Origin: Candidatus Pullibacteroides excrementavium
Lineage (GTDB): Bacteria > Bacteroidota > Bacteroidia > Bacteroidales > P3
Length of the DNA stretch: 64,000 nt
Reading direction: 5' to 3'
Assembly: GCA_017694335.1 (NCBI GenBank)
Contig: JADIMZ010000034.1
Coordinates: 1 to 64,000 of the forward strand
Shown here piece after piece: positions 20,314-32,336 of the stretch. Position 1 is the first letter of the stretch; every line of letters begins with the position of its first letter. The position numbers were made by a program, and so were the translations under genes. The notes beneath the pieces were generated by a model. The model worked only from the letters and a program-made list of their open reading frames with translations. It was not told the DNA's origin and made no database searches.

Positions 20314-22875
20314 CTATTCCAAGATTACGGCACGGTTCAGTTCCGGCAAGGAATACCGGTTGTTCTCGGCTCCGATAGCCTTGATAATAAGACGGTCGGC
20401 CGGGATATGGTAACGAGTCTGCATCAGATTGTAGACATACTGTACACGTTGCTCGCTCAACTGCTGGTTGCGGGCAGGATAGCCAGTTTCCGCATCGGCG
20501 CAACCGGTAATGGTGAATACCTTGTCCTTGTCGAGCGCAATCACATTACGGATATAGAAATCCAAATGGAACAGCTCCCGCGTACTCAAGGTGGTCTGGC
20601 CTATTTCAAAGAACACGGCGCCTTCGGAAACCGTGCCGGCAAAGACAGTGTCAGGACGGGCAAGCAAGGAATCAAGCACGGCTTTGGAGACCACGGTATC
20701 GCTCGGGCAAACCACTGCCGTCTTGGCTGCCGATACCGTATCCTGCAACTTTTCTACACCGGACAAGGAATCTTCGCTGGCCAGTTCTTCTACCGGAGCG
20801 ACCATTTCCACCGCTGGCATTTCAGACAGGCTGCGAACCCGTTCAAACCCGGTCTTGCCCAGATTAACCGAAACACCCAAGGTGACAGAAGTCAAACCCA
20901 GCACGCCACCTTGCGTGGCCTTAGTGATGGATTCCTTGGTAACCAACTGGGTCAAGGTCAAGTTCAAATCCACCCGTTTGCTCAGACGGATATTGTTGAT
21001 CAAACCGGCACCCACGGCAAACTCGTTGTCATGCGCCTTTGGTCCGTCCAAAGAATAGGAATACAACCATCCTGCAGTCACATAAGGCACAAAATCCCAC
21101 AGACGGTCTTCTTTGTAGCCGCCAATCGTGTTGGAGATATTCCACAAAGCATCCCCATGCAAATAGGAAATGCCGAATTTTTCAGGATAAGGCATCGATT
21201 CGGTAGCCGGTGCATACGGGGTTTCCACCGTAGCATACCCGCGCGCGCTCAAACCGGTATAACCGATACGCAGCCCCACATCCGGCGTGAACCATTTGCC
21301 CACATAGATATTCAAAGCCGGAGAAATGCGTCCTCCTGCCGAACCGCCTGCGCTGCGGCTGTTTTCCAGTACCAGGAAGTGAACGCCGCCATCGGCTCCT
21401 ACAAAGAAGTTATCGAAGAACTTGTTGGTCTTGTATGGGCCACGGATTACTTTGCCGGTGGAATCACGGTTGGTGGTATTCCAAATCATATCCGGCACAA
21501 TAACCCGTTCGAAATCGGTTCCGCCCAGATTGACAGAAATACCCACCGTCACAGAACTCATTCCAGCTACACCATTTCCATTGGGAAGGATGGAATTGGG
21601 CATGATATATTGCCGACCTTCGAGCGTCAAATCCACACGGTCGCTGATCCGCAGCACGTTGAGCAAACCAAAACCCAAGCCTAATTCGTTATTGCCAGCA
21701 CCTTCACGCCCCGGCAAGGGGAAAGAATGAATCCATCCCGCACTCAGGTAAGGCACAAAATCCCAGAAGCGTTCTTTCTTGTACCCGCCTATCGTATTGG
21801 ATATGTTCCACATGATATCCCCATGCAAATTCGAGTAACCAAGATGGACACCATCCCGAATCGTCAGGCCTGCATAGCCGATACGCGCCCCTACGGTCGG
21901 AGAGAACCATTTACCCACATTTACGTCCAAGGCAGGGGATATCCGGCTCTTCCAGGCATGGATGATTCCGTTCTCGTTTTCCAACAATTGTAATCCGCCG
22001 CCCACAGATACAAAGAAGTTGTCGAAAAAGCGATTGGTCTTATACGGCCCCCGGATGATGTTCCCGTTCTCATCGCGATTGGAACCAAGTTCAATATTCT
22101 CTGTCCAAACACTGCGGCGATCACGATTGATCGGATGCCAGGAAAGGAAATCCGGCGAGGCAATATTGAAATCCAAGCCCACCGTTACCGACGACATGCC
22201 GGCAACGCCTCCCATTCCGGGATTGACGGCATCTTCCTTGAAAAGCAACTGCCGGAATTCAAGGGTGAAATCCATCCAGTCGGTCAGATAGATTTTGTTC
22301 AGCAAACCGGCACCGGCAGCAAATTCGTTGTTAGACAAGCCTGCTCCATCGCGCGAATTGGTACGCAGCAAACCTGCCGTGAGGTAAGGCACGAACTCCC
22401 AGCGGCGATCGGCCCGGTATCCGCCCAACAAGTTGGAAATGTTCCAAAGCACATCTCCATGCAAATAGGTGAATCCCATCCGTTTCCGCCATACTCCATC
22501 CGAATACTGCTCATAAGCATAGCCTGAAGGTTTGTTAGTCCAGCCCCGAGCCGTAAGTCCCGAATACCCCACCCTCAAACCGATGGAAGGAGTAAGCCAT
22601 TTGCCCACATACAGATTGAAAGCCGGAGAAATCTGTCCTCCAAGGCCTCCATAATTGTCTCCAGCACTCAACAACCCATTGAGTCCACCAGAAACACCAA
22701 CAAAAAAGTCTCCGGAAAAGACAGGTCCATAGAGCAAAGCTGTCTGCCTTACTCTTTTGGGAACCTCCCTCTTCCGGTCTTGCCCAGCGTTCTCTCCATG
22801 AACCGGAGAGATAACTCCGCTGGAAAGCAAGGATAGAATCAGCAACACGCCGAAGCATTGTCTACTTACTTTCAT
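20314..22875 (-). CDS. Outer-membrane protein with three tandem beta-barrel-like repeats and C-terminal OmpA domain
   Basis: Signal-like MKVSRQCFGVLLILSLLSSG; three ~190-aa repeats (FFVGVSGGL..., FFDNFFVSVGGG..., FFDNFFVGADGG...); OmpA-type C-term ITGCADAETGYPARNQQLSEQRVQYVYNLM. Confidence 0.85.
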   Translation of the reverse strand: MKVSRQCFGVLLILSLLSSGVISPVHGENAGQDRKREVPKRVRQTALLYGPVFSGDFFVGVSGGLNGLLSAGDNYGGLGGQISPAFNLYVGKWLTPSIGLRVGYSGLTARGWTNKPSGYAYEQYSDGVWRKRMGFTYLHGDVLWNISNLLGGYRADRRWEFVPYLTAGLLRTNSRDGAGLSNNEFAAGAGLLNKIYLTDWMDFTLEFRQLLFKEDAVNPGMGGVAGMSSVTVGLDFNIASPDFLSWHPINRDRRSVWTENIELGSNRDENGNIIRGPYKTNRFFDNFFVSVGGGLQLLENENGIIHAWKSRISPALDVNVGKWFSPTVGARIGYAGLTIRDGVHLGYSNLHGDIMWNISNTIGGYKKERFWDFVPYLSAGWIHSFPLPGREGAGNNELGLGFGLLNVLRISDRVDLTLEGRQYIMPNSILPNGNGVAGMSSVTVGISVNLGGTDFERVIVPDMIWNTTNRDSTGKVIRGPYKTNKFFDNFFVGADGGVHFLVLENSRSAGGSAGGRISPALNIYVGKWFTPDVGLRIGYTGLSARGYATVETPYAPATESMPYPEKFGISYLHGDALWNISNTIGGYKEDRLWDFVPYVTAGWLYSYSLDGPKAHDNEFAVGAGLINNIRLSKRVDLNLTLTQLVTKESITKATQGGVLGLTSVTLGVSVNLGKTGFERVRSLSEMPAVEMVAPVEELASEDSLSGVEKLQDTVSAAKTAVVCPSDTVVSKAVLDSLLARPDTVFAGTVSEGAVFFEIGQTTLSTRELFHLDFYIRNVIALDKDKVFTITGCADAETGYPARNQQLSEQRVQYVYNLMQTRYHIPADRLIIKAIGAENNRYSLPELNRAVILE

Positions 22876-22903
22876 AACCCCTAAAATTTTATTTGTTTCC
22901 CGA

Positions 22904-23629
22904 TTATATAAGTTTTTCCTTGTTGTTCCGCACCAAGACAGCCACTTCGGCTGCCATCTTGCGCGACAGTTCGGTAGCCGACAACCTGTGCCAATACGAA
23001 CGGGAGTGGATATCGCAGCCCACATGCTGATAGTATCCCTCTTTGAGCAGAAACCCGGCCCTTTGGCAAACCGCCTTGCCATAATATCCGGCCAGCGAAG
23101 GCAGGTTCAATTGCAAAGCGATATTGTTTTTCTTTAGCTTGTCGTATTCCTCCTTGCCCATATACAGATATCGTTCCGGATGAGCCAGCACGGGGAAGTA
23201 CCCCTGTTCCTTTATCCGATCCAGCAGGGACCAGAAATTGAAAGGCGCTCCGGCAAACGAAGTCTCTACCAGAACCCGCCGCTGCCCCAATGTCAGCAGA
23301 TCTTTTTTTTCCAGCCGTTCGGAAAAACCGGCATCCAACATATATTCAGCGGCCAGGCGCAATGCCATTTTACCACTATAGCGTTCCTTCAGCAAACCGA
23401 AACGCTCTTCCAGGGCCTCCGTGGTGTTCGGCATGTCTTCAGCCACATGGGGCGTGAGCCAAAGGCAAGCCACTCCCGCCTTTTCCAGTTCCGCCAATAA
23501 TTCCAACGACTGTTCCATCTGCTGCAGTCCGTCATCCACGCCCGGCAGCAAATGGGAATGGCAGTCGTAAAAGCCGCGGAAGAAACCATTCTTCCCCAAG
23601 CTAATCTTGCTTCGTCTGATCCACCACAT
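22904..23629 (-). CDS. CpsB/YwqE-type tyrosine-protein phosphatase (PHP fold)
   Basis: YDCHSHLLPGVDDGLQQMEQSLELL...PVLAHPERYLYM. Confidence 0.9.
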   Translation of the reverse strand: MWWIRRSKISLGKNGFFRGFYDCHSHLLPGVDDGLQQMEQSLELLAELEKAGVACLWLTPHVAEDMPNTTEALEERFGLLKERYSGKMALRLAAEYMLDAGFSERLEKKDLLTLGQRRVLVETSFAGAPFNFWSLLDRIKEQGYFPVLAHPERYLYMGKEEYDKLKKNNIALQLNLPSLAGYYGKAVCQRAGFLLKEGYYQHVGCDIHSRSYWHRLSATELSRKMAAEVAVLVRNNKEKLI

Positions 23630-23631
23630 CC

Positions 23632-26025
23632 TTATTCGCCCTTTCCGTAAGCGTATCCATAACCGTAACCGTACCCATAGCCGTTCCCATAACGGTGATA
23701 CCGATGGTTCTCGCTTACCACGCCATTCAGAACCAAGGACATCTTGGGATACTTCTGCTCTACATGCAGCTTCTTGATTTCCGGCAGCAGGCTCTTATCG
23801 AACAGACCGGCTCTTACCACGAACAAGGAGCGATCGGCCACTTGCGCTACCAGCGAAGCATCGGCTACAATGCCGGTCGGAGGGCAATCCATCAATATGT
23901 AATCGTAATGTCCACGCAAAGCCTTCAACAACATCGACAAGCCCTCGCCGGCCAGCAGCTCCGCCGGATTAGGAGGAAGGGAACCGACCGGAATCAGGTC
24001 TAGATTGTCATACATCTTGCAAACAATACGGTTGGCATCCATCGTCGGATTGTTCAGGTAATCGGCCACCCCTTCCGTGTACTTCACGCCCGAAACTTCG
24101 CTCAAAGAAGCCTTGCGCAAATCCAAGTCAATCAACAAGGTCTTCTTTCCTTTGATAGCCAATGCCATCCCCAGGTTCAAGGTCGTGAAGGTCTTTCCGC
24201 TGTCCGGGAAAAGCGATATTACCATGATAGCCTCCGAAGCGCTTCCTTTCCCTACCATGAATTCCAGATTGGTACGCAGAATACGGAAAGCCTCGTTGAT
24301 TACATCCCGGCTTTTTTCTTTCACCACCAAAGGCGCGGCCAAGCGGGTCCTGCGGGCGGCCGGCAGGAACTTCCTCTTCTTCGATACCAAAGGAATTTCT
24401 CCCACCAAAGAGATATCCATGTTTTCCAAATCCTTGCGCCCTCTCACTGTGGTATTGAGCGTTTCTATCAAAAAGATAGCTACCGCCGGCAAAGCCACGC
24501 CCAGCACCACGGCCAGCAGCAATATCATCATCTTGTTGGGACTGCCCGGGATCTTGGGACCGTCCGGAGGCGTGATTACCCGGGTATTGTAGGCGGTAAA
24601 TGCCTGCGACAGTTCGTTTTCCTCCCTCTTTTGCAAGAGGTACAGATACAAGGCCTCCTTCACTTTCTGCTGGCGTTCGAACGACAACAGGTGCTTGGCC
24701 TGTACCGGACTGGCCGCTATCTGGGTGTTGGACTGCGCCTGGTAATTCTTCAAGCTGGAAATCTGCAGGTTCAAGTTTTCTTCCTGATTGTCGATAGCGG
24801 TGATGATGTTCTGCCGCATCTCAGCCAAAGCCCGATCCATGTTCTGCACCAAAGGATTCCTCTCCCCGCTGCTGGCCAAAAGATTGTTGCGTTGCAACAG
24901 CTGCTGGTTGTAAAGGTCAATCTGCTGGCCCACTTCCGAACCTTCGGCATTCAAAGTGGCCGGCAGCAGCTGGTTCTTCTTGCTCTCGTCTATCATATAA
25001 GAGCGTATGTACCGCACCATCGCCAACTGGTTGTTCAAGGCCAGCAACTGGTCCTCCACTTCGCTAGCCTTAGTCAGATACAAACCGTACGAAGCCTGCA
25101 CGTCGGGAAGCAGGTTCTCGCTCTTGTATTCCGAAATATCCTCGTCCACCGTACCCAGTTCCTGCTCGATGACTTCCAAGCGGTCGTCGATAAACATGGA
25201 GGTGCTCACCGTAAGCTGGTTCTTGTCCTTGACCCAGTTTTCGTTATAGATAAGAATCAGCATATTGAGCAGGTCTTCCGCCCGCTGAGGGCTGACGTCC
25301 TTTATGGAAAGGTCCACCACGGTCGACTCTTTCTGGCTCAGCATCACCGTCAAGACTTTGGAATACCGAGCAGCTGCCGCTTCTATACCTGAATAAGACA
25401 CCTTTATCGGGGAGGCGTCCTGCCAATCAAAATATGCCGTTTTCCGCACGATTACCCGACCCACCGGAGTCTGCAAGGTATCCCCGATCCGGCCTTCCAT
25501 CTCTTTCACGGTCCCGGCTTTCTCGCCTTTCAGCCTGAAATCGCCCAGGAGCAGGCTATCCCCGCCCAAAAGGGAAAGCTGCAACGAAGCCGACACTTCT
25601 CCCATATCCAGGAAAGCCACTTTTACAGGCAGTTGGAAGCCATACAGGGTGGGATTGTACAACCAGCCCTCGGCTCGGTAGTCAACGCCTAAGTCCAGCC
25701 TTTCCACCACTTCCCGCATCAGCGCCGGGGACTGCAGGGCGATGATTTCATTGTTCACATTGGTGTTTTCCTTGAAAAGGCCTAACTCGGCAAATGCCTC
25801 AGTACCCGAGCTAATGGAATTTCCTGTGGAAGTCTCTTTGAGCAGAAGGGTCGCCGAACGGGTATAGACGGGTTCCGTACGCTTTATAAAAAAGAAAGCC
25901 ACTACCAATGCAGCGGCCACGCAAATCACGAACCACTTCCATCGTGCCAGGCACCAGGAAACAAAGTCCTTGAGTGTAATGAAGTTATCAGAATCTTGCT
26001 TGGGAAGGTTAAGCTGTTCTGCCAT
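23632..26025 (-). CDS. Polysaccharide co-polymerase / BY-type tyrosine autokinase (Wzc-like)
   Basis: Wzz domain plus ISLFPDSGKTFTTLNLGMALA, LLIDLDLRKAS, DYILMDCPP; tyrosine-rich tail YGNGYGYGYGYGYAYGKGE. Confidence 0.92.
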   Translation of the reverse strand: MAEQLNLPKQDSDNFITLKDFVSWCLARWKWFVICVAAALVVAFFFIKRTEPVYTRSATLLLKETSTGNSISSGTEAFAELGLFKENTNVNNEIIALQSPALMREVVERLDLGVDYRAEGWLYNPTLYGFQLPVKVAFLDMGEVSASLQLSLLGGDSLLLGDFRLKGEKAGTVKEMEGRIGDTLQTPVGRVIVRKTAYFDWQDASPIKVSYSGIEAAAARYSKVLTVMLSQKESTVVDLSIKDVSPQRAEDLLNMLILIYNENWVKDKNQLTVSTSMFIDDRLEVIEQELGTVDEDISEYKSENLLPDVQASYGLYLTKASEVEDQLLALNNQLAMVRYIRSYMIDESKKNQLLPATLNAEGSEVGQQIDLYNQQLLQRNNLLASSGERNPLVQNMDRALAEMRQNIITAIDNQEENLNLQISSLKNYQAQSNTQIAASPVQAKHLLSFERQQKVKEALYLYLLQKREENELSQAFTAYNTRVITPPDGPKIPGSPNKMMILLLAVVLGVALPAVAIFLIETLNTTVRGRKDLENMDISLVGEIPLVSKKRKFLPAARRTRLAAPLVVKEKSRDVINEAFRILRTNLEFMVGKGSASEAIMVISLFPDSGKTFTTLNLGMALAIKGKKTLLIDLDLRKASLSEVSGVKYTEGVADYLNNPTMDANRIVCKMYDNLDLIPVGSLPPNPAELLAGEGLSMLLKALRGHYDYILMDCPPTGIVADASLVAQVADRSLFVVRAGLFDKSLLPEIKKLHVEQKYPKMSLVLNGVVSENHRYHRYGNGYGYGYGYGYAYGKGE

Positions 26026-26068
26026 TTTTCTATCTGCTATTTATCCGACAATGTTTATACAAAAGCAC

Positions 26069-26896
26069 TTACATCACGATGGGCACAATAAGGGCGGCAA
26101 TCGTGGTGAACAAAGAAGCCAGCGAAATCCAGAACGAAGGCTGCAGGACCGTATTTCCGGCCGCCGTAGCCTGACGTGCCTTGGCCGGCAACGGGCGCAC
26201 GTACACTACATCGTTCTGTTGCAGGTAATAGGCCGGCGAGGCATAGAGTTCCTTGGCCGAGCAGAGGTTTACCGGGTAGACTTTCTGCTGCCCGTTTTCT
26301 TCCCGCAACACGGTTATGTCGGTCCTGCGTCCATGAATCGTCAAGTCCCCAGCCATGCTCAAGCCTTCCAGCAGCGTCACATGCTCTTGGTCTATGCTGA
26401 AACGCCCCGGTTGGTTCACCTCTCCGAGTACAGAAAAACCTAAATTCTTATATTCCACCGTCACTACTGGATTCTGCAACAGTTTCTTGTTTTCCAATTC
26501 ATTCTTGATATAAGAAGCCACATCCGAACGGGTCATCCCCTCCACATGCAGGTTTCCCAAAACCGGGAAATCGATATTGCCTTGGGGATCCAAGGTATAG
26601 ACCGACACGTATTCCCTCGAATTTGTAGAAATCCAAGAGTTATCTCCCAGATAAGGCTGGGTTATCGGCAGGTTGAACAAGGGGTTCAATTGCGGGTCCT
26701 GGCTGTTGACCACAATCGAAATCTTGTCTTCCGGCTTCAAGGTGATGGGCGTGGGATCGGCCACCGGCATGGCGATTTCCTGTATCGTATCGCCCTTGAC
26801 ATCTTGGAAATACGCCACCTGCTTATGTACCGAGCAGGAAGCGAAGAACAACAGCCCCCACACGGGCAGCAGCGCTCTAAAGACTCTGTGTCTCAT
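26069..26896 (-). CDS. Polysaccharide export outer-membrane lipoprotein (Wza-like)
   Basis: LLFFASCSVHK lipobox; poly-export and SLBB-like segments (VLGEVNQPGRFSIDQEHVTLLEGLSMAG). Confidence 0.9.
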   Translation of the reverse strand: MRHRVFRALLPVWGLLFFASCSVHKQVAYFQDVKGDTIQEIAMPVADPTPITLKPEDKISIVVNSQDPQLNPLFNLPITQPYLGDNSWISTNSREYVSVYTLDPQGNIDFPVLGNLHVEGMTRSDVASYIKNELENKKLLQNPVVTVEYKNLGFSVLGEVNQPGRFSIDQEHVTLLEGLSMAGDLTIHGRRTDITVLREENGQQKVYPVNLCSAKELYASPAYYLQQNDVVYVRPLPAKARQATAAGNTVLQPSFWISLASLFTTIAALIVPIVM

Positions 26897-26944
26897 GATG
26901 TTTCTTTTTCTATTTCTATTTTACCCTCTATCTCTTTTGCCTCT

Positions 26945-28054
26945 TTATTCCGCTTTGGCTTCGCGCTGACGACGCTTATAGCTCAGCCAGTAATTGAAGG
27001 CCGTATACAGCAGCACATCGCCCACCAGCAGGATATTGATGTTGACCCATCGGGCCAGCACCACGTTCATTACCGTCAAGAAAGCGGAAATCAGCACAAT
27101 CGTGATCATCGCCCAGCGGGCAGACACTCCGATGGCCAGGAGTTTGTGGTGTATATGGTTCTTGTCGGGCGTGAAGGGATTCTTGCCCGAACGGATCCGG
27201 ACAAAGAATACCCGCACCACATCCATGCAGGGCACCAGCAAAGGGGCGAATGCCGCCACCATGGTATTTATCCCGATGGCGGGCAGGGAAACGGAATTGG
27301 CTACACGCAAGCCGCAGAAAGCCAGAATCAAACCCATGGTCAAGGAGCCTGTATCGCCCATGAAGAGTTTCCGTCCCCGGTTCACGTTGCCGAACACATT
27401 ATAATAGAAGAACGGCAGCAAAGTGCCTACCGTGGCAAAGGAAAGCACGGCGTAAGCCAATTGGCGTTCTTCAATGAAGAGGACCCCGAAATAGCTCATC
27501 GCCACGATAGTCAAGCCGGAGGCTAGCCCGTCGATACCGTCTATCAGATTGATGGCATTGACAATGAACACCACCACCAGGATGGTCAGCAAAAAGCCCA
27601 GAGGCCTGTACAGTTGTTGTATCCCCAACACCCCGCCAAGATTGTGCAAGGCCAAGCCGGCAGCCACCAACAGTATGCCGCAGAGTATCTGCACGACAAA
27701 CTTGTTCTTGTAACGGACCCCGATCATATCGTCGACGATACCGGTAATATACAGCAGCAGCAAGGCGCAGCAGGTAAAGGATATCTCGGTGATATTGGTT
27801 TGTATGTTCCGCCACAGCTCGCCCTGGGCGAATGCGGTGTTAAGGCCCACCAGCAGGAGTATCGTAAAGAAGATGGAGGGCATGAACGCAATGCCTCCCA
27901 AGCGGGGAATGATGCCCTGATGGATTTTCCGGCTATCCACCGGGTCGAACAATCTTCGGCGGAACGACACCAGCAGTATCTTGGGAATCAGCACGCTAGT
28001 GAACACCGCGCTCACAAGGCAGGCCAACAGGGTGTTTATCAACCACATATCCAT
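26945..28054 (-). CDS. WecA/MraY-family undecaprenyl-phosphate glycosyl-1-phosphate transferase
   Basis: NAINLIDGIDGLASGLTIVAM, FMGDTGSLTMGLILAF, DKNHIHHKLL. Confidence 0.92.
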   Translation of the reverse strand: MDMWLINTLLACLVSAVFTSVLIPKILLVSFRRRLFDPVDSRKIHQGIIPRLGGIAFMPSIFFTILLLVGLNTAFAQGELWRNIQTNITEISFTCCALLLLYITGIVDDMIGVRYKNKFVVQILCGILLVAAGLALHNLGGVLGIQQLYRPLGFLLTILVVVFIVNAINLIDGIDGLASGLTIVAMSYFGVLFIEERQLAYAVLSFATVGTLLPFFYYNVFGNVNRGRKLFMGDTGSLTMGLILAFCGLRVANSVSLPAIGINTMVAAFAPLLVPCMDVVRVFFVRIRSGKNPFTPDKNHIHHKLLAIGVSARWAMITIVLISAFLTVMNVVLARWVNINILLVGDVLLYTAFNYWLSYKRRQREAKAE

Positions 28055-28190
28055 AAAATCCGTTGTCTGTTTATCAATGTTCCGTTTTAGTTCTTTCTCA
28101 GGTGGGGGATTTTTTCTGGGGGAAAAAGGAGGAAATAACGTAGTGGATTTTTATCGGGAAGACCCGCTCATCGTCGAGTGGATGAAAATG

Positions 28191-28787
28191 TCATCGTATA
28201 TTCTGTATTCGTTTCTCTTTCTTGCTTTTCCGGGCATCCGCACCCGCTTCGGCTATCTTTTCGACGCAAGAGGCCGGCACGGTCGTAATGGCCACCGCCA
28301 CCACTCCGGCTACAGATACCACTACCGATTTGCCTTTTATCCCGGCCAACCTCACAAACTCGCCCTCCTGTCCTTGGAACGGTCCGTCGGTAATCCGTAC
28401 CCGCTGCCCTTTTCTCCATTCCTGCGGTTTCGGCTCCACATACACCAAGTTTTCGGAATAGGTCTGGACCAGACGGATGAAATCGTCCATCTGCCTGTCC
28501 GGGACAACCAAGGCTTTCTTCTGCTTTTGTTCGTCTTCCCGTATGATATATTGGAGGTAGGGGGCTTTCGGCTTAATCTCCTTGAGCCGCTGCCAAGAGG
28601 AACGCACAAAGATAAGATTGTGTATGGCCGGCACGAGCCGTTTCTGCTTCCGCCCCGCCCGCACGGTATCGCTGTAGCGCATCGGCACAAAACTCTCTAT
28701 GCCGTAGCTTTCCAGCAACTGCTTCGCTTTCATCTCCCTACGGTAAGTAGCACGCATGGCGAACCACACTTCTTGCTCTCTGTCCAT
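28191..28787 (-). CDS. upxY: UpxY-family NusG-like transcription antiterminator
   Basis: WFAMRATYRREMKAKQLLESYGIESFVPMRY...GQRVRITDGPFQGQEGEFVRLAGIKGKSVVVSVAGVVAVA; first gene of capsule operon. Confidence 0.88.
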   Translation of the reverse strand: MDREQEVWFAMRATYRREMKAKQLLESYGIESFVPMRYSDTVRAGRKQKRLVPAIHNLIFVRSSWQRLKEIKPKAPYLQYIIREDEQKQKKALVVPDRQMDDFIRLVQTYSENLVYVEPKPQEWRKGQRVRITDGPFQGQEGEFVRLAGIKGKSVVVSVAGVVAVAITTVPASCVEKIAEAGADARKSKKEKRIQNIR

Positions 28788-28884
28788 GGCTCCTCATTTT
28801 TCCGGGCCGCCTGCGCCCGACCGCAGACCGTTCCCGGCATCTTAGCCCGTCATTTATGATGGGGGAGGACATACCTAAGGGGCT

Positions 28885-28930
28885 TAAAAGTATTTATAAA
28901 TTACTGATTCACCGCAATTTAATACTTTTA
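28885..28930. repeat. AT-rich imperfect inverted repeat in the capsule-operon leader
   Basis: TAAAAGTAT (28885-28893) / ATACTTTTA (28922-28930) plus inner TAAATT/AATTTA. Confidence 0.6.
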
Positions 28931-28988
28931 CTATGCAGTTTTTTCGGGTCTTCGACCAAACCGCACTTTCGCGCTGTCTAATCGCAGG

Positions 28989-29020
28989 CAAAGGTATCTG
29001 AAAAAAACCATATAAACAAC
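28989..29020 (-). promoter_or_regulatory. Capsule-operon promoter
   Basis: Minus strand GTTG-N20-TACCTTTG; exact TAnnTTTG -7 box at 28989-28996 upstream of upxY. Confidence 0.65.
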
Positions 29021-29052
29021 CTTTTTCGCCCTTAAAACATATTGTAGAGCCT

Positions 29053-29242
29053 CCCGTCTCTTCGCAAGAGACCTGTGGGTATTTGCAATAAGCACACAAT
29101 CTGTTTTTTGATGCTTCTTGAAATTAAATGTGATGGAAGCACTCAACCACAATCGGTACCGCCCAAGCCCGTCAAAAAACCTATCGGATAAGGTTATTCC
29201 CTGTTTTTTCAATGCCTTGCAGGTCTCTTGCGAAGAGACAGG
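29053..29242. repeat. Inverted-repeat pair next to tyrosine recombinase (candidate invertible segment)
   Basis: 20-nt exact inverted repeat GTCTCTTCGCAAGAGACCTG (29056-29075) / CAGGTCTCTTGCGAAGAGAC (29220-29239), 22/23 when extended; each arm contains palindrome GTCTCTT-CGC-AAGAGAC. Confidence 0.8.
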
Positions 29243-29243
29243 C

Positions 29244-30458
29244 TCATGCATCGAAAGCTTCCAGCAACAGCTTGTTTGCCTGGTCTATGACGGAGTTTTC
29301 CAAGCTGGCCAGGTAAATCCGGGTGGTCTTCTCCGAGGCATGCCCCATCCCGGCACTGATGACAGCCAGAGGGATATGATGATCCCGGGCTGCCGTGGCC
29401 CAGGTATGCCGTGCCATGTAGGAAGACAGTGGCCGGTCCAAACCTATCATCTCTCCCAGCTGTTTCAGACTACGGTTATACCGTGTCAATGCCCCTTGAT
29501 ACTGCCGGAACGCCCGGAAAGGCTCCTGGCTTTTCACAAAAGGGAAGACATAGGGCGTATTGCGGCAAGACTCTTCATACCGGCGTATGATTTCCCACAT
29601 GCAGGGCTCTATGCGGACAAACAGGCTCTGTCCGGTCTTGCGCCGCACATAATGGATCATGCCATTCCGCAAGTCTTCTTTTTTCAAGTAAGCAATGTCC
29701 ACAAACGACATGCCTCGGGTGTAATAGCTGAACAGGAATACATCCCGGCTCAAGCCGAGCAAAGAGCAGGAAGGCAGCGCCAGGCGGGAAAGCCGCAGCA
29801 GGTAACTTTCGTCCATGGCACGCTTGCGGGTCTGGTCCACGCCTGTGTAGACTTCCTCGAACGGGAATTTCTGCTTGGTCAGCCCCTGCTTCACCGCCTT
29901 GTTGTATACCGAACGGAGAATCCGCATGTAGAAAGACTTCGTGTTCCTGACCACATGCCGGGTCGAAAGCCAGTCGTCGTAAGAGGAAATCAAGGCATCG
30001 GTGCATTCCGAAAGCAGAAGGTCTTCCCCTCCCAAAAAATGGCGGAAACTGTTCAAGGTCCGGTGGTAATTCCGTGCCGTACCGAATTTTTCCTTGACTT
30101 GCAACTGAATAATCTGGCTTCTGAAATAATCCAAAAAAGTCTTTTGCCGAGCCGATTCCCGGAAAGCTCGAAGGGTATCGTCCAGCGAGTGCCTGAAAGC
30201 GGAGCGTTCCCTTTCCTTAAGCAGATTCCCTAAATAGGTCACATCACCGTCTATCCTTTCCTGCACTTCCAGCAGCATGCTGTCCGACCCTTTCCCGTGC
30301 AAGGCCACGCATTCATGCCTGGCATCCCATTGCCAAGCATACAAACGGATATCGGTAAGCACTCTTTTCCTTTCACCCGCTTGGGTGACAGAATAATAGA
30401 TTGTCCCCAATTCGTCTTGGGGCGACAACCGGTGGAATTTGACTTTTACAGTTACCAT
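29244..30458 (-). CDS. Tyrosine site-specific recombinase (Bacteroides Tsr/integrase type)
   Basis: Arm-binding and SAM-like N-part; catalytic R...HxxR...Y: LFSYYTRGMSF, SYMARHTWATAA, GHASEKTTRIYLASL. Confidence 0.9.
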   Translation of the reverse strand: MVTVKVKFHRLSPQDELGTIYYSVTQAGERKRVLTDIRLYAWQWDARHECVALHGKGSDSMLLEVQERIDGDVTYLGNLLKERERSAFRHSLDDTLRAFRESARQKTFLDYFRSQIIQLQVKEKFGTARNYHRTLNSFRHFLGGEDLLLSECTDALISSYDDWLSTRHVVRNTKSFYMRILRSVYNKAVKQGLTKQKFPFEEVYTGVDQTRKRAMDESYLLRLSRLALPSCSLLGLSRDVFLFSYYTRGMSFVDIAYLKKEDLRNGMIHYVRRKTGQSLFVRIEPCMWEIIRRYEESCRNTPYVFPFVKSQEPFRAFRQYQGALTRYNRSLKQLGEMIGLDRPLSSYMARHTWATAARDHHIPLAVISAGMGHASEKTTRIYLASLENSVIDQANKLLLEAFDA

Positions 30459-30485
30459 GTCTTTTCGTTTTTTTGGGTTTCATGC

Positions 30486-30497
30486 TGATACGTATCA
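30486..30497. repeat. 12-bp perfect palindrome upstream of the recombinase start
   Basis: TGATACGTATCA, 28 bp upstream of the recombinase ATG. Confidence 0.6.
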
Positions 30498-30538
30498 TGT
30501 TTCAATATTATGTCAAGATTCATTACCTTTGGCTTCGC

Positions 30539-30699
30539 CGAAGATAGGATGCGTCTCGGCAAAGCTCAAGCAAGGGAGTGCTTGGCTCTGCGCTCGACTT
30601 TCACTATCTTTGATTGCTTCGCACCGAAGATAGGATGCGTCTCGGCATAGCTCAAGCAAGGGAAGCGCTTGGCTCTGCGCTCGACTTTCACTATCTTTG
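30539..30699 (+). promoter_or_regulatory. Tandem ~87-bp direct repeat, each unit carrying a TTG-N20-TATCTTTG promoter
   Basis: CGAAGATAGGATGCGTCTCGGCA[A/T]AGCTCAAGCAAGGG...GCTTGGCTCTGCGCTCGACTTTCACTATCTTTG occurs twice; -7 boxes at 30605-30612 and 30692-30699. Confidence 0.75.
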
Positions 30700-30788
30700 T
30701 AGATTGATTAGACAAGTACGGATTTGCAGACGCGGCCCTGGCACCCTTGCCCGTCCCCGTCCTTTTGTTGTAACTAAACTTCATCACA

Positions 30789-32336
30789 ATGTCTACAAAC
30801 CAAGAAAAATGCGCCGACTTGCGGCAACGCAAGCAGACGGCCATGGCCGGTGGTGGCGAAAAGGCCATTGCCAAGCAGAAAGAGAGCGGAAAACTCACCG
30901 CCCGTGAACGAATCGACAGCATTCTGGACCCGGGTTCGTTCCAAGAACTGGACCTTTTCATCCAGCACTCGGCCCGGGATTTCGGGATGGAAAAGAAATA
31001 TCTGGCCGGGGACGGGGTGGTTGCCGGCACAGGCTCGGTCAACGGCCGTCCGGTATGCATTTACGCCCAAGACTTCACGGTGACCGGTGGCTCGCTCGGC
31101 TTCATGCATGCCATGAAGATTTGCAAGGTCATGGATCACGCCATTAACATGCAGATGCCTCTGATTGGCATCAACGACTCGGGGGGAGCCCGTATTCAGG
31201 AAGGGGTCCGCGCTTTGGCCGGTTATGGGGAAATTTTCTACCGTAACACCAAGGCATCGGGCGTGATTCCGCAGCTTTCGGTCATCTTAGGCCCGTGCGC
31301 CGGCGGTGCTGTATATTCCCCGGCATTGACAGACTTCGTATTCGTCGTTGACCAGGTTTCCAAGATGTTCATCACCGGACCGGAAGTCATCAAGTCGGTA
31401 TTGGGCGAGGAAATCTCGCAGGAAGATCTTGGCGGCGCCCGCACCCATGCCGAAATCACGGGCAACGCGCATTTCTATGCCAAGACCGAGCAGGAATGCT
31501 TTGCGCAAATCAAGGAATTGCTCAGCTATATCCCGCGCAACAACCGGGAAAAGGCCGAAGCAACGGCGCCTAAGGCTCCGCAGAAGACCTACGAGATTGA
31601 AAACATCATCCCGGACGATGTGCGCAAGCCTTACGATGTGCGCCATGTCATCAAGGCTATCTCCGATGATTCCCAGTTCCTCGAAGTGCAGGAGCTTTTC
31701 GCGCCGAACATCGTGGTGGGCTTCGGCCGTATCGACGGGCAGACGGTGGGCTTCGTGGCCAACCAGCCGTTAGTGATGGCCGGGGTTCTGGATGTGGACA
31801 GCTCCGACAAATGCGCCCGCTTTATCCGTTACTGCGATGCCTTCAACATTCCTTTGGTAACTTTCGTGGACCTGCCGGGATACCTGCCGGGGGTTGACCA
31901 GGAACATGCAGGGGTAATCCGTCACGGTGCCAAGATCCTGTATGCGTATTCGGAAGCCACTGTGCCCAAGATTACCGTTATCTTGCGCAAGGCGTACGGC
32001 GGCGGATACATTGCCATGTGTTCCAACCACTTGCATGCCGATTTCGTGTTTGCTTGGCCTACGGCAGAAATCGCGGTGATGGGTTCAGCCGGAGCCGCCA
32101 ACATCATTTTCCGCAAGGAAATCAAGGAATCGGAAAATCCGGAAGAAACCCGCAAGGAAAAAGTGGCCGAGTACAGTGCCAAGTTCGCTAATCCGTATGT
32201 GGCGGCCGGCTATGGATATGTGGATTCGGTCATCGAACCTCAGGAAACCCGCCAAGCGGTGGCCCGTGCGCTGGAACTGAGCAAGGACAAGCATGTGGAA
32301 GCGCCTTGTCGGAAGCATGGACTTCCCCCATTTTAA
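30789..32336 (+). CDS. Acyl-CoA (propionyl-/methylmalonyl-CoA) carboxyltransferase subunit
   Basis: INDSGGARIQEGVRALAGYGEIFYRN, FVDLPGYLPGVDQEHAGVIRHGAKILYAYSEATVPKITVILRKAYGGGYIAMCS. Confidence 0.92.
   Translation: MSTNQEKCADLRQRKQTAMAGGGEKAIAKQKESGKLTARERIDSILDPGSFQELDLFIQHSARDFGMEKKYLAGDGVVAGTGSVNGRPVCIYAQDFTVTGGSLGFMHAMKICKVMDHAINMQMPLIGINDSGGARIQEGVRALAGYGEIFYRNTKASGVIPQLSVILGPCAGGAVYSPALTDFVFVVDQVSKMFITGPEVIKSVLGEEISQEDLGGARTHAEITGNAHFYAKTEQECFAQIKELLSYIPRNNREKAEATAPKAPQKTYEIENIIPDDVRKPYDVRHVIKAISDDSQFLEVQELFAPNIVVGFGRIDGQTVGFVANQPLVMAGVLDVDSSDKCARFIRYCDAFNIPLVTFVDLPGYLPGVDQEHAGVIRHGAKILYAYSEATVPKITVILRKAYGGGYIAMCSNHLHADFVFAWPTAEIAVMGSAGAANIIFRKEIKESENPEETRKEKVAEYSAKFANPYVAAGYGYVDSVIEPQETRQAVARALELSKDKHVEAPCRKHGLPPF

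Follow-up and report, generated by a model that had tools for sequence, protein, structure and literature searches.

Genomic organization of the capsule locus

The window analyzed here, a stretch of 64,000 nucleotides from Candidatus Pullibacteroides excrementavium (genome G000), contains the head of a capsule operon, a tyrosine recombinase gene upstream of it and a pair of inverted repeats in the interval between the two. The first gene of the operon (28191..28787, minus strand) had been called upxY in an earlier note on this DNA, and its product was confirmed as a UpxY protein, a NusG-like antiterminator, by NCBIfam NF033644 (164.7 bits against a cut-off of 100). It is followed on the same strand (20314..28054) by genes for a WecA-type transferase, a Wza-like export protein, a Wzc-like tyrosine kinase, a CpsB/CapC phosphatase and an OmpA-domain protein. 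A sequence search of the genome (2.6 Mb, 165 contigs, 84% complete) detected one UpxY copy. The upxY leader contains an AT-rich stem (AAAAGTATT...AATACTTTT, 28886-28929), and a stem with different paired bases lies at the same place in the related genome G148 (L047 7000-7045), which suggests that a hairpin in this leader is conserved.

The recombinase gene (29244..30458, minus strand) encodes a protein of 404 aa that is predicted to be a trans-acting DNA invertase. The protein matches the catalytic domain PF00589 (Phage_integrase, E 1.7e-11) as well as PF13102 (E 3.3e-21), its family profile matches XerC-like, XerA and XerD structures, and the catalytic R, K, R, H and Y are all found (R248, K274, R350, H373 and Y382), with Y347 at the position of the HxxR histidine; it was assigned to the tyrosine recombinases on the basis of both the domain match and these residues. 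Among 190 genomes of the family, orthologs at 70-71% identity were detected only in G148 and G149, where they also adjoin the capsule operon, and the three proteins form a clade with 100/100 support, separate from a group of paralogs described below. The recombinase is 71% identical to its orthologs, compared to 99% for the neighboring carboxyltransferase (both relatives) and 91-93% for Wza and Wzc (G148); such low identity relative to the neighbors suggests either fast evolution or replacement of the gene. The carboxyltransferase gene lies upstream of the recombinase gene in divergent orientation, and is found without a recombinase or capsule operon alongside in G146, G147 and G155. Positions 30538-30699 contain two direct repeat units, 86-87 nt apart, with TTG-N20-TATCTTTG (plus strand) at the end of each; they are predicted to be two copies of a promoter that reads towards the carboxyltransferase gene.

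The left arm of the inverted repeat (29053..29075, plus strand) carries the palindromic core GTCTCTTCGCAAGAGAC at 29056-29072 (GTCTCTT-CGC-AAGAGAC), and the right arm (29220..29242, minus strand) carries its core at 29223-29239 with the center GCG, the reverse complement of the left-arm CGC. Both arms are 23 nt long, 96% complementary and exact over 20 nt, and enclose a segment of 144 bp (29076..29219, strand undefined) that is predicted to be invertible; this is the arrangement of repeats around a short segment typical of an inverton. The two cores are perfect palindromes, mutually identical and with matching centers. The repeat and its spacing had thus been described correctly in the earlier note, and so had the palindromic nature of each arm (7-nt half-sites around a 3-nt center in both cores) and the position of the right arm directly behind the recombinase gene, at a measured 1 nt from the stop codon (29246-29244). 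The 20-nt repeat is the longest close inverted repeat of the window, whereas only 12-15 nt were reached in 20 first-order Markov simulations of the same length (64 kb) and nearest-neighbor composition. A chance origin of the repeat was ruled out by this comparison with a simulated maximum of 15 nt. No Rfam RNA element was matched in 28000-31000. When the 190 family genomes were searched, no second genome with this repeat pair at the capsule locus was found, and the one genome in which it was detected shows a single orientation. The gap between the recombinase gene and upxY in G148 is filled with other GC-rich tandem repeats.

A family of related sites in this genome and its relatives

A whole-genome search with the arms revealed five inverted pairs of sites of the form GTYTCTT-NNN-AAGARAC (hereafter type C), including the pair in the window. 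The arms of the other four pairs, at loci C21, C42, C54 and C69, are spaced 231-350 nt apart, compared to 167 nt in the window. Inverted pairs of type C sites are also present in three relatives (G148, G149 and G150). The genes flanking the distant pairs include a T9SS-sorted surface protein operon and a gene for a DUF3575 outer-membrane protein. A second class of sites, ATCTCTTGGCAAGAGAT (type B), occurs as pairs spaced at 169 nt, each immediately following one of three paralogous recombinases at loci C40, C79 and C107 (41-46% identity in the best segment); these sites differ from type C at the outer base and share one common center. In more distant relatives, a recombinase is followed by a palindrome pair, often 140-180 nt apart and with matching centers. 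Exactly this geometry was found in 14 of the 60 family members with a full flank, and it thus represents one type among several. In Prevotella denticola, the left palindrome (L042 6925-6945) is contained in the 3′-terminal part of the recombinase gene, and inversion would therefore alter the C-terminus of the enzyme.

The half-sites of type C are nearly invariant while the centers vary between loci: the five pairs of this genome have five different centers (CGC, AGC, CCT, GGC and ACC). Within a pair, the centers are exact reverse complements at 12 of 13 loci in the four genomes, a count that includes orthologous loci, which are not independent, and to which common descent of the arms could contribute. 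On the sequences compared, this is the pattern expected if strand exchange requires a matching center. The sole mismatched pair is C4b of G148, with centers GGC and AGG (L072 3686-3940). A lone site with the center AGG (L071 3604) lies 39 kb away on the same contig, and the two may be a trace of recombination between elements.

Comparison of orthologous loci provided evidence of inversion. The flanks of C21 are homologous to a locus in G149 (98% over 1013 nt on one side and 77% over 590 nt on the other), and the arm that bears the double site and the promoter is directed towards the DUF3575 gene in G000 but in the opposite direction in G149. At C69, one flank is common to G000, G148 and G149 and the other flank differs in all three; taking the flank that G149 has in common with C69 and G148 as reference, the C4 segment of G149 is in the inverse orientation to those of G000 and G148 (comparison of the G148 and G149 segments: score 127 inverted and 26 direct, shuffles 16 +/- 8). 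Since two distant loci are oppositely oriented in different species, inversion does happen at such elements. The proposal of the earlier note that the arms are recombinase sites, each made of two half-sites and a spacer, gains support from this recurrence of the architecture, with pair-specific centers and segments inverted between species. In a wider set of loci, the contig ends within 250 nt after the recombinase gene at 7 of 71 loci, compared to 1 before it, as might result if invertible segments are hard to assemble. An assembly N run is located exactly between two palindromes after a recombinase in G157 (L053, contig C137). A related switch at L010 5101-5359, L072 and L075 has one conserved flank and a different gene on its other side in each species, encoding an ECF-sigma-like protein, an uncharacterized short protein and a zinc-ribbon/FHA protein.

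Promoters inside and outside the repeats

In all other pairs of type B or C, one arm is accompanied by an outward-pointing, perfect -7 box (TAnnTTTG) at a distance of 13-16 nt from the core, or 6 nt in elements of the C21 type, and the match to the -33 box varies. A perfect -7 box is missing only from the window pair, which has no -33 box either. What it has instead is a degenerate -7 box, TGTTTTTT (29202..29209, plus strand), 13 nt from the core and pointing away from the capsule operon; the homologous arm of C42 reads TATTTTTG, and a stretch spanning the end of the segment and the right-arm core (29197-29239) aligns with this promoter-bearing arm at 81% identity over 43 nt. Scored against the Bacteroides consensus TAnnTTTG/TTG, from which promoters of the host group may deviate, no promoter combining a box with at most one mismatch and a good -33 box was detected in the segment in either orientation, the second being obtained by in silico inversion; an internal promoter driving a neighbor in one orientation, as expected of an inverton, was thus not found. 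No U-run terminator was present in either orientation. Two ways for inversion to act, creation of a promoter and reorientation of a terminator, were discarded on the same grounds.

The fixed consensus promoter of the capsule operon lies outside the repeats (28989..29019, minus strand) and reads TTG-N20-TACCTTTG, with TTG at 29019-29017 and TACCTTTG at 28996-28989. The earlier note had placed a consensus promoter about 35 bp from the left arm, which agrees well with the 33 nt measured. In G148, which has no repeats at this place, a homologous TTG-N20-TATCTTTG precedes upxY. Because this fixed promoter is outside the repeats and conserved in a genome without them, capsule transcription appears to be independent of the segment. 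The phase-variable capsule switch suggested in the earlier note is therefore not supported, given the degenerate -7 box, the absence of a promoter or terminator in either orientation and the fixed promoter outside. Its fallback, a terminator, attenuator or weaker promoter inside the segment, fails as to the terminator and a consensus promoter, neither of which was found; a weak non-consensus promoter may be present there.

At C40 (L011 4385-4570), C79 (L013 1153-1338) and C107 (L014 2988-3173), a ATCTCTTGGCAAGAGAT pair with its segment follows each paralogous recombinase. Each segment carries a perfect -7 box directed back towards the recombinase, and the assembly thus shows the three switches in the OFF orientation. 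The products of genes a short way downstream are metallo-beta-lactamase-fold, LRR, WG-repeat or unknown proteins.

The enzyme and its predicted action in trans

At least three type C sites were found only in G000 (10), G148 (7), G149 (7) and G150 (3), and 0-2 in each of the other genomes among the 190 of the family. Three of these four multi-site genomes (G000, G148 and G149) contain the recombinase ortholog, an association rather than proof of an enzyme-site link because of the relatedness of all four genomes. Where a genome encodes other members of the enzyme family but not this one, the count of type C (GTYTCTT) sites is 0-1. A full-length ortholog was not found in G150, in which the contig breaks where the recombinase gene would be expected, ending within repeats 543 nt from the neighboring gene. 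In G148 and G149, the ortholog lies beside the capsule operon without an adjacent site pair, and dispersed pairs are present in both genomes; if the enzyme uses these dispersed pairs, it must act in trans. Taken together, the recombinase of the window probably serves as a master invertase acting in trans, comparable to Tsr19 of Bacteroides fragilis.

Comparison with known systems

Tsr19 (BF2766), a tyrosine master DNA invertase of B. fragilis, inverts two promoters, one at the local polysaccharide operon and one at a distance (PMC4747536), and the repeats at the local site may occur in several copies at one end (PMC4747536, PMC3090145). Both enzymes are tyrosine recombinases encoded immediately upstream of a polysaccharide operon (here in G000, G148 and G149); both have local sites and the same sites at distant promoters, which are served in trans by Tsr19 and, on the predicted enzyme-site pairing, here; and the multiplied repeats resemble the double site of C21. 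However, the local promoter of Tsr19 is functional and switches the polysaccharide, whereas here, judged by the consensus only, the local operon has no functional invertible promoter but a decayed one next to a fixed one, and one distant region was reported for Tsr19 compared to four distant pairs in this genome. The system of the window would thus work like Tsr19 in layout and reach. Mpi of B. fragilis is similar in that one enzyme serves many dispersed invertible promoters and UpxY-headed capsule operons are involved, but it is a serine recombinase, whereas the enzyme here is a tyrosine recombinase according to Pfam and the capsule promoter lies outside the repeats; the locus thus differs from an Mpi-type capsule switch in the class of its enzyme. 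The order invertase, repeat pair and upxY/wecA genes is shared with invertase-linked invertible promoters of Bacteroidales (PMC8748976), from which the locus differs in lacking a consensus promoter within the segment and in the apparent dispersal of the sites of the enzyme.

Interpretation of the locus

Considering the above, we favor, as the somewhat probable explanation, that the repeats are a genuine site pair of a tyrosine invertase, most likely the neighboring enzyme, that the promoter inside the pair has decayed, and that inversion would be nearly silent for the capsule. GTCTCTT and AAGAGAC would be the half-sites, the 3-nt center would be the non-palindromic portion of the region in which crossover occurs, and a pair-specific center would set both orientation and the choice of partner. 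The enzyme may act in trans on a small network of five pairs in this genome, that of the window included; inversion at the other four would turn a promoter towards or away from flanking genes. The window pair is a member of this site family, and inversion probably still takes place there. A flip there should alter capsule transcription little or not at all, since the internal promoter has decayed and the operon is on a fixed promoter; the main targets of the recombinase are more likely to be distant surface-gene promoters. The perfect arms speak against this explanation, as a disused site would not need them, and so do the mismatched centers of C4b in G148, the sites of G150 with no full-length ortholog detected, and the chance that a weak promoter deviating from the consensus lies in the segment.

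An ON/OFF switch of the capsule, working through a non-consensus promoter in the segment or through an element that influences the fixed promoter at a distance of 33 nt, seems unlikely. The interval between recombinase and upxY is the classical position for such a switch, known systems have upxY or wecA directly behind invertible promoters (PMC8748976) and Tsr19 flips a promoter of extracellular polysaccharide (PMC4747536), but adequate -7 and -33 boxes and a terminator are lacking in both orientations, the perfect -7 box of every related element is absent here, and a fixed promoter is present. It is improbable that the pair is a fossil at which inversion has ceased: decay of the internal promoter and the loss or original absence of an adjoining pair in the two nearest orthologs would be expected of a dead element, whereas perfect, identical palindromes with matching centers beside an intact recombinase would not.

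Use of the sites by a different recombinase, for instance one of the three paralogs, with the neighboring gene as a bystander, is doubtful to a high degree. Paralogs in the same genome do use the similar ATCTCTTGGCAAGAGAT sites and G150 has sites with the ortholog undetected; however, the paralog sites differ at the outer base and have one common center, GTYTCTT sites number 0-1 in genomes with other members of the enzyme family, and the ortholog occurs in three of the four multi-site genomes. That the palindromes are RNA hairpins (terminators or attenuators) and not recombination sites is very hard to sustain, even though each arm folds into a 7-bp hairpin and in B. fragilis expression is lower the more inverted repeats separate promoter and genes (PMC4747536): no U-run terminator exists in either orientation, both arms are upstream of the fixed promoter, and centers that match within pairs and vary between them would be left unexplained.

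Implications for invertible promoters in the family

A recombinase beside capsule genes is usually interpreted as a capsule switch. The comparative evidence presented here points instead to a trans-acting enzyme with live targets elsewhere and a local site minus its promoter, and offers a rule for telling live from dead invertible promoters in this family, namely the presence of a -7 box at 13-16 nt from one arm. A further hypothesis to emerge is that many sites share one enzyme and are insulated from each other by the identity of their spacers. We put forward, tentatively, that one tyrosine invertase may operate several chromosomal switches insulated by pair-specific 3-nt spacers, and that the promoter-less capsule pair may leave the capsule constitutive, its sites being kept, for example, to tune the enzyme by serving as a reservoir for its binding. 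If so, dispersed sites would invert locally and not rearrange the chromosome, and such spacer insulation would be a natural counterpart of orthogonal lox sites.
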